Source: Pelotomaculum thermopropionicum SI (GTDB taxonomy: Bacteria > Bacillota > Desulfotomaculia > Desulfotomaculales > Pelotomaculaceae). From it: a stretch of DNA of 64,000 bases. The notes under the pieces are model-generated. The model searched no databases, had not been told where the DNA came from, and saw only the letters and a program-made list of their open reading frames with translations. Both the position numbers and the translations under genes were made by a program. Shown in pieces: positions 35,695 through 38,386 of the stretch; position 1 is the first letter of the stretch; the number at the start of each line of letters is the position of its first letter. The DNA lies in the NCBI GenBank assembly GCA_000010565.1, contig AP009389.1, positions 372,001 to 436,000 on the forward strand. The letters run 5' to 3'.

Positions 35695-35856
35695 CTGGAC
35701 ACTATCCTGCAGGCGGTGGGCGATGTCGGTTTTCCCATGGCCGTGGCCGCTTACCTGCTGGTGCGCCTTGAGGCCAGGCTGGAGTCCCTGGCCGACGGTA
35801 TGGCCGGCCTGGCCGAAGCGGTGGCAGGTGAGCGGCAGCAGGAGGAGAAGAAGTAA
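35695..35856 (+). CDS. YvrJ-family small membrane protein with a probable CTG start
   Basis: A 53-residue protein: a hydrophobic helix DVGFPMAVAAYLLVRLEARL and a charged helical tail ending GERQQEEKK, the YvrJ pattern. The only start that fits the ribosome-binding site GGAAGGAG (35680-35687) is the CTG at 35695, directly preceded by an in-frame TAA. An in-frame GTG at 35716 would remove the first seven residues and has no ribosome-binding site. A broken second copy lies at 36685. Confidence 0.75.
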   Translation: MDTILQAVGDVGFPMAVAAYLLVRLEARLESLADGMAGLAEAVAGERQQEEKK

Positions 35857-35927
35857 AGAAAAGCTTATATGCTCTGACGTGTATGCACTGGCGTGAAGGC
35901 TGCCGGCCCCCCGGCGGCTTTTTTTTA
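35731..35927 (+). repeat. Direct repeat 1 flanking hicAB (yvrJ 3' end plus terminator)
   Basis: From TTTCCCATGG to the T-run, about 197 bp, near-identical to 36679-36875. It covers most of yvrJ and its terminator. hicB and hicA lie between the two copies. Confidence 0.85.
35897..35927 (+). terminator. Terminator after yvrJ
   Basis: GCTGCCGG and CCGGCGGC pair around a C-rich loop and are followed by eight Ts. The T-run touches the 3' end of the convergent hicB gene. Confidence 0.85.
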
Positions 35928-36290
35928 AATCATTTTCTTTCCAACACCCATACTTATCAAATGAGATAAATATTGATTTGCGCTAACCCCTTCCCTTTTA
36001 GCTGCTTCAGCAATCATTTTGTGCAGGCTTTTAGGAATCCTTAGTGTAATACGGCCATTATATTCCTCTTTGCCGCTGGGTTCTGGGATAGTGATTCCAT
36101 CTTCATAAGCTGCTTTTATCCATTCGCTCTTGGCAATCATAGCGTCTTTTATAGCATCTTCTATGGTATCACCAGTGCCCACACAGTAGCGAAGATCGGG
36201 AAACTCAACGATATAACCGCCATCGTCAGTATCCGGCCGCACAGTGAAAGGATAACTCAAATTTAAATAGTAGTTTAGGTCCTTATTCAT
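35925..36290 (-). CDS. hicB: HicB-family antitoxin
   Basis: A 121-residue protein. The N-terminal HicB fold (PFTVRPDTDDGGYIVEFPDL, GDTIEDAIKDAMIAKSEWI) is followed by a ribbon-helix-helix DNA-binding domain (RITLRIPKSLHKMIAEAAKR). It would bind HicA and repress the operon. It is downstream of hicA on the same strand with a 54-bp gap, the usual hicA-hicB order. Confidence 0.9.
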   Translation of the reverse strand: MNKDLNYYLNLSYPFTVRPDTDDGGYIVEFPDLRYCVGTGDTIEDAIKDAMIAKSEWIKAAYEDGITIPEPSGKEEYNGRITLRIPKSLHKMIAEAAKREGVSANQYLSHLISMGVGKKMI

Positions 36291-36344
36291 AATCTTATCA
36301 CCCTCAGTTCATTAGATTTAGTTTATCAGCCTTTTTAATACGGC

Positions 36345-36576
36345 CTACAGCCCCATCTCTTTTAAAAGGTCTTTGAAATTTTCAAGATACACTCTCTTAA
36401 CTGGCTTCCCGCTTCGTCTTACGATTCCTATCACGTGAGGTGGTTTGGTGTATGTGTAATGGCTTCCTCTGTTTCGGCAGTTAAATCCCAACTGTGTTAA
36501 TAATAAGTGTATGTCTTCGAATTCTGCTTCTTTCGCGTTTTTTCAACTTCTTGATTAGTTTGTCCCTTGTACTCAT
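36345..36576 (-). pseudogene. hicA: HicA toxin gene with a one-base frameshift
   Basis: The ATG at 36576 has GGAGGT nine bases upstream and opens MSTRDKLIKKLKK. One base too many in an A6 run (T6 at 36538-36543 on the plus strand) shifts the frame. With five As it would continue NAKEAEFEDIHLLLTQLGF, NCRNRGSHYTYTKPPHVIGI and end FKDLLKEMGL, a full 76-residue HicA-like double-stranded-RNA-binding-fold toxin including the catalytic His (GSHY). Sequencing error, decay or slippage-regulated toxin are all possible. Confidence 0.75.
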
Positions 36577-36601
36577 ATATACCACCTCCCGCCAAGTTAG
36601 C

Positions 36602-36630
36602 ATTATATATAAGGTCATATATGATGTCAA
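36602..36630 (-). promoter_or_regulatory. Consensus sigma-A promoter of hicAB
   Basis: On the minus strand, TTGACA (36630-36625) and TATAAT (36607-36602) with a 17-bp spacer; both match consensus exactly. It ends 25 bp before the hicA start. Confidence 0.85.
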
Positions 36631-36684
36631 GGGTCCAAAAAATTTTCAAAAAAATGTTGTTTTTATGTTTGGCCAGCCTTTCCC

Positions 36685-36804
36685 ATGGCCGTGGCCGCCT
36701 ACCTGCTGGTGCGCCTTGAGGCCAGGCTGGAGTCTCTGGCCGACGGTGTGGCCGGCCTGGCCGAAGCGGTGGCAGGTGAGCGGCGGCAGGAGGAGAAGAA
36801 GTAG
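36685..36804 (+). pseudogene. yvrJ copy lacking its 5' end
   Basis: It reads MAVAAYLLVRLEARLESLAD and ends AGERRQEEKK-stop. The first 13 codons and the ribosome-binding site of the intact copy are missing; upstream DNA belongs to the hicAB promoter side. It is not expected to be translated. Confidence 0.75.
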
Positions 36805-36842
36805 AGAAAAGCTTATATGCACTGACGTGTATGCACTGGCGT

Positions 36843-36875
36843 GAAGGCTGCCGGCTCCCCGGCGGCCTTTTTTTT
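36843..36875 (+). terminator. Terminator copy 2
   Basis: The same stem as at 35897-35927 (GCTGCCGG/CCGGCGGC with small changes) followed by eight Ts. It isolates the merR operon from upstream transcription. Confidence 0.8.
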
Positions 36876-36892: not shown

Positions 36893-36921
36893 TTGACAAC
36901 TGTCACATGACAGCATATAAT
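36893..36921 (+). promoter_or_regulatory. Consensus promoter with palindromic operator in the spacer (merR operon)
   Basis: TTGACA (36893-36898) and TATAAT (36916-36921) with a 17-bp spacer. The spacer contains the perfect palindrome CTGTCA-CA-TGACAG (36900-36913). An operator between -35 and -10 is the usual location for MerR-family proteins, and the first gene of the operon encodes one. Confidence 0.85.
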
Positions 36922-36942: not shown

Positions 36943-37431
36943 ATGGACAGGTATACAATTATTGAGTTAGCAGAACAAGCAGAAAGCTTGGGGATTAACT
37001 TGGGGGCTAATCCTCATAGAACAATAAGATATTACATAAGTATAGGGTTACTACACAAACCAGATGTTGTACAGGAAGGAAAAAAGAGGGTATCGTATTA
37101 TAATCAAGATCATTTAAATCAATTAAAAATAATAGATTACCTAAAAAAAAAGAAATACTCTCTAAAAGAAATTAAAAAGCAACTTCATAAAAAGGTATTT
37201 TTATCTGAAGATGGATTAAAGTTTATCGAGAAGTATCGGGATGAGATACCAGAAGGTGCTTTTTTAAAAGGTATGCCGGTTAATATCGCGGAAGTTGCTT
37301 TTTTTATGTTGAAATTTTTAGAAGATTTTAAAAAAGATTTGGTAACACCTGAATCATTAGAAAAATTTTTTATTGATGAAGATGGTAAGCCAGTGGAAGT
37401 ATTATCAATCCACAGGAAATATCCTTCATAA
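36943..37431 (+). CDS. MerR-family transcriptional regulator
   Basis: A 162-residue protein. The winged-helix region IIELAEQAESLGINLGANPH, RTIRYYISIGLLHKPD and LKIIDYLKKKKYSLKEIKKQ is MerR-like (Arg-Tyr-Tyr after the recognition helix). The C-terminal half has no Cys-rich metal loop, so the effector is probably not a metal. The ATG follows AAGGAGG. It is first in an operon with DUF4258 and YgiT-type genes and probably represses it through the spacer palindrome. AT-rich. Confidence 0.82.
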   Translation: MDRYTIIELAEQAESLGINLGANPHRTIRYYISIGLLHKPDVVQEGKKRVSYYNQDHLNQLKIIDYLKKKKYSLKEIKKQLHKKVFLSEDGLKFIEKYRDEIPEGAFLKGMPVNIAEVAFFMLKFLEDFKKDLVTPESLEKFFIDEDGKPVEVLSIHRKYPS

Positions 37432-37445
37432 CCGGGGGTTGTAAT

Positions 37446-37694
37446 TTGGACCCTAAAGATCTTATTAGAAAAGCCGCTGAAGAGGACAGTTACGATATCG
37501 TCGAACATGCTCTTAAAGAAGCCGATAAAGATGGTTTGACTATCCACGAAATAGAAAATGTCATGATTTATGGCAAAATAAATCAAAAGGATCCGAAGAA
37601 AAGCAGGTATAGACTTAGATATAGGAACATACAAATAATTGTTGAGGTAATCTCTAACGAGGTAACGATTGTTACCGTTATGAGAGATAGATAA
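37446..37694 (+). CDS. DUF4258 protein, putative toxin
   Basis: An 82-residue protein with the DUF4258 pattern: IVEHALKEADKDGLTIHEIE, then RYRLRYRNIQIIVEVISNEV and IVTVMRDR. DUF4258 proteins are related to RelE/MqsR-like RNases and are usually encoded just before a YgiT-type zinc-finger protein, as here. The TTG start follows GGGGG. Activity not demonstrated. Confidence 0.75.
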   Translation: MDPKDLIRKAAEEDSYDIVEHALKEADKDGLTIHEIENVMIYGKINQKDPKKSRYRLRYRNIQIIVEVISNEVTIVTVMRDR

Positions 37695-37709: not shown

Positions 37710-38078
37710 ATGGCAAAGTTGTGTAGATGCGGAAGCATAGCTGTTGAAAAACAAGTAGATATCGAAAGAAATATTGGTGGGCGCCGTATCATCTTTAAAA
37801 AAGTTCCTGCTTTTATATGTCCCAATTGTAGCGAGCGTTATTTTACTTCAAAAACAATAAAGCACATGGATAGGTTGTTGGCTAAAAAAGGAAATAAAAC
37901 TGAAATAGATTTTGAATTAGATCCTAAAGAGCAGCAATTCTTATCTTATTTTAAAATATTTAAAGACCGGTTTATTTGCCCGCGCGGTGCAACTATGGAC
38001 ATGCCGGTATCTTTAGCTGATTTATTTTTAGTCGCTAGCAGACTTAGTGAATTAAAACTTGAACAATCTTATAAGTAA
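37710..38078 (+). CDS. YgiT-type zinc-finger protein, putative antitoxin
   Basis: A 122-residue protein; the zinc finger uses C5, C7, C37 and C40 (LCRCGS, CPNCSERYF), the arrangement of the MqsA/YgiT N-terminus. Unlike MqsA, there is no obvious Xre helix-turn-helix C-terminus; DNA binding may instead be left to the MerR protein of the operon. It follows the DUF4258 gene by 15 bp. The ribosome-binding site is GAAGGTGG. Confidence 0.75.
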   Translation: MAKLCRCGSIAVEKQVDIERNIGGRRIIFKKVPAFICPNCSERYFTSKTIKHMDRLLAKKGNKTEIDFELDPKEQQFLSYFKIFKDRFICPRGATMDMPVSLADLFLVASRLSELKLEQSYK

Positions 38079-38386
38079 TCAAGCCTATTCGCCCTTATGG
38101 ACGGGATCCCCGGTAGTTCTTTTAACTCCCCCGCCAGGAAGTTGCCCGCCCCTTCCGCCTTCCTTGCTCGCGCAGCTAAGGCGAAAGGCGGGGATGAGAG
38201 GCGGGCCTTGTTTTCCGAAAATTCCCGGAAGTAAAAGCCAAGAAGCCTGGGAGCAGGAAAACCGTTCCGTCACCCGGATGGAGCAGCAGGTCTGGCTCAA
38301 GGAAGCTAAGAAGGAGAATGATAGTTTGTATCCACCCGCGTGAAGGCTGCCGGCCCGGTGGCGGCGCCGCCTGACCCGGCGGAGGA
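38079..38386. other. Intergenic region between the YgiT gene and gvpJ
   Basis: No supported gene. An open frame at 38059-38343 has no ribosome-binding site and overlaps the YgiT gene end. The segment GCGTGAAGGCTGCCGGCCC at 38338-38356 repeats the DNA just before the yvrJ terminators, perhaps a third, decayed copy. Confidence 0.45.

Follow-up and report, generated by a model that had tools for sequence, protein, structure and literature searches.

Cis-mobilizable elements (CIMEs) described in Streptococcus lie at the 3' end of a gene, between two att sites, and are devoid of integration and transfer genes, and a scenario of tandem accretion has been put forward for them (PMC5704250). For restriction-modification genes, insertion accompanied by a long target duplication is on record (Nobusato et al. 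2000, as cited in PMC1643837, PMC3031569, and PMC3874152). A published look-alike among toxin-antitoxin systems is a ParDE-like pair of Microcystis bounded by 152-bp direct repeats (PMC7935541). It has long been asked how chromosomal toxin-antitoxin modules of small size arrive in genomes and persist there; for hicAB in one bacterial order, the comparisons below suggest a testable answer, namely, that integrase elements bring them in as cargo at the 3' ends of genes.

The window, that is, the whole 64,000-nucleotide stretch of DNA analyzed here (G000:C1:372001-436000), belongs to Pelotomaculum thermopropionicum SI, whose genome (G000) is a single contig of 3,025,375 bp. Within it, a hicBA pair lies alone between two copies of the 3' end of yvrJ; on the plus side, the far copy is followed by a MerR/DUF4258/YgiT operon, a third yvrJ piece, and then gas-vesicle genes. 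The features are as follows.

35695 to 35856, plus strand: yvrJ, the presumed target gene, intact, 53 codons (Pfam YvrJ PF12841, E 3.7e-14)
35731 to 35926, plus strand: near repeat copy, from yvrJ codon 13 to the end of the terminator
35895 to 35926, plus strand: intrinsic terminator of yvrJ in the near copy, a 12-bp stem and a T-run
35927 to 36678, no strand assigned: the insert, 752 bp
35925 to 36290, minus strand: hicB antitoxin gene, intact, its stop codon overlapping the T-run of the yvrJ terminator
36345 to 36576, minus strand: hicA toxin gene, frame broken near 36530-36545, two overlapping open reading frames
36602 to 36630, minus strand: hicBA promoter, TTGACA-17-TATAAT, 12/12 consensus positions
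36679 to 36874, plus strand: far repeat copy, a yvrJ 3' fragment with terminator, 96% identical to the near copy
36893 to 36921, plus strand: promoter of the second operon, 12/12 consensus positions, directly after the far copy
36943 to 37431, plus strand: MerR-type regulator, first gene of that operon (Pfam MerR_1, E 1.7e-12)
37446 to 37694, plus strand: DUF4258 protein, putative toxin (Pfam PF14076, E 2e-9)
37710 to 38078, plus strand: YgiT/MqsA-type zinc-finger protein, putative antitoxin (NCBIfam TIGR03831, E 9.1e-10)
38327 to 38365, plus strand: third yvrJ 3'-end piece, degraded, closing the second operon (39 nt, 85% identity, E 3.4e-5 genome-wide)

A sequence-only reading of the window had proposed that the yvrJ 3' end and its terminator are duplicated around hicAB. 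This is confirmed: over 196 nt, the near and far copies differ by eight substitutions and one extra T, and this 4% divergence implies that no recent recombination has taken place between them. The far copy, beginning at yvrJ codon 13 and lacking a start codon, is a gene fragment, which corrects the earlier description; the start of yvrJ itself is probably the CTG at 35695, as the alignment of relatives keeps this CTG and an in-frame TAA lies just upstream. The repeat edges coincide with the ends of the module, as that reading had expected. On its right, the near copy ends in the T-run of the yvrJ terminator, where hicB also has its stop codon (35925-35927); the far copy has its left edge 48 bp upstream of the hicBA promoter. 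Both copies end in strong hairpins (for 35880-35930, around the near terminator, dG is -21.6 kcal/mol and z is -2.16), and the third piece is no longer a strong terminator (z +1.03). A whole-genome search found the yvrJ end in exactly three places, all at this locus (E 1.6e-155, 1.7e-87, and 3.4e-5); the repeats are therefore due neither to chance nor to a dispersed family, and a REP element is ruled out.

The same reading had placed hicB, hicA, and their promoter exactly between the repeats. The insert does hold these and nothing else, but hicA is not intact. The hicB product scores above the curated cutoffs of two profiles (HicB PF05534, 44.2 bits against a cutoff of 21, E 1.8e-11; HicB_lk_antitox PF15919, 38.6 bits against a cutoff of 27, E 1.4e-9). 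The hicA gene is split in two: its N-terminal part falls within 36481-36630 and its C-terminal part is at 36345-36491, the latter matching PF07927 weakly (16.6 bits against a cutoff of 27). G002, a relative, has an intact HicA of the same type. Unless the break reflects a sequencing error, the copy in the window may no longer be addictive. Neither the open reading frames nor the profile matches of the 752-bp insert include an integrase or transfer gene. A transposon or insertion sequence is ruled out, as no terminal inverted repeats occur at the insert ends (35927 and 36678). An integron cassette was considered because each unit ends in a hairpin, and was set aside because what recurs is the coding end of a gene, in varying lengths, and each unit's hairpin is yvrJ's own terminator.

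By analogy with the tRNA-end cases described below, the reading we prefer, and consider somewhat probable, is that the yvrJ hicBA module is a CIME-like relic, devoid of an integrase, at the 3' end of yvrJ and that another toxin-antitoxin operon has accreted behind it. A small integrative element with the yvrJ 3' end as its attachment site, and carrying a copy of the yvrJ tail, would have integrated here, leaving an intact yvrJ (with the near copy), while the gene end that it displaced came to lie beyond the insert (the far copy). Loss of the integrase would have left the addiction module alone between two att-like repeats. The MerR/DUF4258/YgiT operon and the degraded third yvrJ end may go back to an older insertion at the same place, which would amount to tandem accretion. 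We infer that a tyrosine integrase made the yvrJ insertion, as we do the direction and the order of insertion. The points in favor of this reading are the match of module ends to repeat edges, the reuse of the yvrJ site, the bias toward tRNA 3' ends, the decay of integrases, and a parallel case of accretion at atpC.

As in CIMEs, att-like direct repeats flank the insert, the 3' end of the target gene is restored, genes for integration and transfer are absent, and units are stacked at one site. Unlike CIMEs, the yvrJ remnant is shorter than 1 kb and consists of a toxin-antitoxin pair alone, its att-like repeat is made up of as much as 196 bp of a protein gene, and no parental element is known at yvrJ. 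The Microcystis pair resembles the yvrJ module in that a toxin-antitoxin system is all that lies between two long direct repeats next to the 3' end of a gene; however, its repeats start downstream of the neighbor's stop codon, whereas those of the window include the coding 3' end of yvrJ and the terminator.

In related genomes, different hicBA types have reused the yvrJ site. hicB lies on the 3' side of yvrJ in four genomes (G000, G002, G003, and G005), always convergent with it, and two distinct HicB types are found there (G000 and G002 HicB are 74% identical; that of G003 is different). A HicB tree did not tell whether the G000 and G002 insertions were independent, and pairwise identities are used here instead. 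Second copies of the yvrJ end are present in three of the four. In G002, the hairpin of the yvrJ terminator recurs after yvrJ and hicBA as an exact copy of 28 nt. In G003, 10 kb past the intact yvrJ, a hicBA of another type is found between yvrJ tails of 168 bp (96%) and 80 bp. The ~10 kb between the intact gene and the 168-bp tail (L054 5486-15490) carries oxidoreductase, transporter, and LysR genes, and no integrase was recognized there by eye. Across these genomes, the 5' extent of the repeated tails varies (196, 168, 80, 39, and 28 nt), whereas on the 3' side all of them stop at or within the terminator hairpin.

Relatives with hicAB at this place and no second repeat would speak against insertion with restoration of the gene end, and such cases were found in part: G005 has a lone hicB convergent on yvrJ, with no second yvrJ repeat found there, and the repeat of G002 is the short one given above. 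Decay accounts for the missing and the short repeat, although this falls short of proof. The empty yvrJ site that had been anticipated did not turn up; relatives have one yvrJ end, and no colinear empty site was found among those examined because their genes downstream of yvrJ differ. The likeness to elements that insert at a gene 3' end and restore it holds for the matching edges, the reuse of the site in G002 and G003, and the bracketing by tRNA and gene 3' ends across the order, but no integrase-bearing yvrJ element was found in the relatives searched. Also counting against the relic are the lack of any match to the yvrJ end in phage or plasmid records and the variable left edge of the yvrJ pieces. 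Searches of viral contigs found no HicB relatives.

The yvrJ region is unstable, as seen in G017: what is repeated there is the gene's 5' part and not its 3' part, with the second copy 0.55 kb downstream, after a Spo0E-like gene (L064 3184-3275 and 3748-3839, 90% identity). Such instability would suit an origin without any mobile element, in which the yvrJ-hicBA region was duplicated in tandem and a deletion came afterward. We consider this improbable, because it requires that a second hicBA copy was lost cleanly at both edges and it leaves unexplained both the tRNA 3'-end bias described below and the presence of a third yvrJ end after an operon that is unrelated.

The near and far copies have in common sequence that is absent from all relatives examined, so the second copy derives from the organism's own lineage or a very near one. 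An att copy acquired from outside would explain this no better than a duplication that arose during insertion. The lineage-specific sequence is therefore also a point for the main alternative, in which a toxin-antitoxin module entered without the help of an integrase, by a route that duplicates about 100 to 200 bp of the target, as for restriction-modification genes, and survivors keep one intact gene copy. We hold this alternative to be possible but unlikely. It has precedents in restriction-modification systems (PMC3874152, PMC3031569, and PMC1643837) and in the Microcystis pair between 152-bp repeats (PMC7935541), and like the former, as these articles describe them, the yvrJ locus has an addiction module, with nothing else inserted, between long direct repeats of the target whose length varies among cases. 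It differs from what they describe in that the insert is hicBA and not a restriction-modification unit, in the strong bias toward gene 3' ends, above all those of tRNA genes, and in the integrase remnants of related cases. Several hicBA types at one yvrJ end likewise point to site-specific integration.

To place the window in the context of its order, we examined 79 hicA loci from 113 genomes (112 relatives and G000), picked by score and from complete genomes regardless of context. Comparison loci, viewed in the same +/-1.5-kb window, were 41 ParE, 26 PIN, 28 core MazF, 28 acetyltransferase, and 40 random loci, the last three groups being pooled as controls (n = 96). Direct repeats bridge the gene in 19 of the 79 hicA loci, several of which are probably not target duplications (paralogous genes at L129/L213 and L303; hairpin repeats at L292, L294, and L323), compared with 1 of the 96 controls (Fisher P value = 9e-7), 2 of 41 ParE loci, and 2 of 26 PIN loci. 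A tRNA gene lies within 1.5 kb of 22 hicA loci, versus 3 controls (P value = 4e-6), 2 ParE loci, and 1 PIN locus, and in 20 of these 22, the nearest tRNA has hicA on its 3' side (P value = 1.2e-4). The firm core of the bracketed loci is the tRNA-end subset, in which a second tRNA 3' end is found beyond the module at eight loci.

tRNA-Ser 3'-end repeats around hicAB: L127 and L289
tRNA-Thr: L132
tRNA-Trp: L139 and L298
tRNA-Leu: L229
tRNA-Lys: L295
tRNA-Val: L312

At tRNA-Leu in G075, the repeats are 54 bp long and exact. The repeats of L127, L132, and L229 start within or next to the anticodon loop, a common crossover point of tyrosine integrases. Both this starting point and the order-wide bias toward tRNA 3' ends argue for site-specific integration over an integrase-independent duplication. 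On the other hand, G048 has a RelBE-like/HicB cluster between two copies of a 70-bp segment from the 5' end of a ywbE-like gene (L046 454-523 and 1993-2062); not every case is therefore a gene 3' end, in line with that duplication route. Four other hicAB loci of G000 (L208, L209, L211, and L212), two of them next to tRNA-Val genes and one each next to tRNA-Ala and tRNA-SeC, lie 234 to 498 bp downstream of the tRNA gene, and no far repeat was detected at any of them, which weighs against the relic. The suspicion that a second toxin-antitoxin operon had stacked at the yvrJ site gains support from the third yvrJ piece and from G043 (L241), in which the atpC terminator occurs three times and separates two hicAB modules in the same layout as in the window. 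A literature search for hicAB at tRNA 3' ends yielded nothing on point, which is no proof of absence.

Integrase traces accompany several of these modules. In G081 (L298), a broken tyrosine integrase adjoins hicAB between the tRNA-Trp repeats, and in G108 (L295), the bracketed module has kept the C-terminal remnant of an integrase. G005 (L391) has an integrase together with hicBA at tRNA-Leu(TAA), and G003 (L389 992-3300) has several consecutive tyrosine-recombinase genes between tRNA-Leu(TAA) and hicBA. The hicB and hicA genes of the G005 element are 95% and 85% identical to those of a 655-bp tRNA-Val module in G048 (L312), which is bracketed by repeats and has no integrase. This pair looks as an integrase-hicBA element decaying to its addiction module would be expected to look, although a cassette captured in trans would look similar. 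In the decay proposed for the relic, the addiction module is what remains of the element, and more such modules are predicted downstream of tRNA 3' ends, between duplicated gene tails; the comparison also points to integrases worth testing.

A toxin-antitoxin-only cassette that moves as a unit with the integrases of other elements acting in trans, and is thus a satellite and not a relic, would suit the very small bracketed inserts (mostly 552 to 1,490 bp, with little but hicAB) and the nearly identical hicBA of G048 and G005, which has an integrase in the latter only. This is hardly probable for the yvrJ module, as the two modules with decayed integrases favor decay and no conserved cassette ends emerged. 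A broader proposal strikes us as rather doubtful: hicAB of this order would form a class of toxin-antitoxin-only elements, each under a kilobase, that travel as units into the 3' ends of tRNA and protein genes, use integrases in trans, and stack there, and the yvrJ array would be one such stack.

Some further arrangements were observed in the order. The tRNA-Leu(TAA) gene holds different integrase-hicBA elements in G003 (L389) and G005 (L391). At L292, L294, and L323, hicAB is flanked on both sides by near-identical, terminator-like hairpin repeats that are not assigned to a gene end (at L294, for instance, a 38-bp exact copy). At L244, a RelBE-type pair is found with a tRNA-Ser remnant beyond it.
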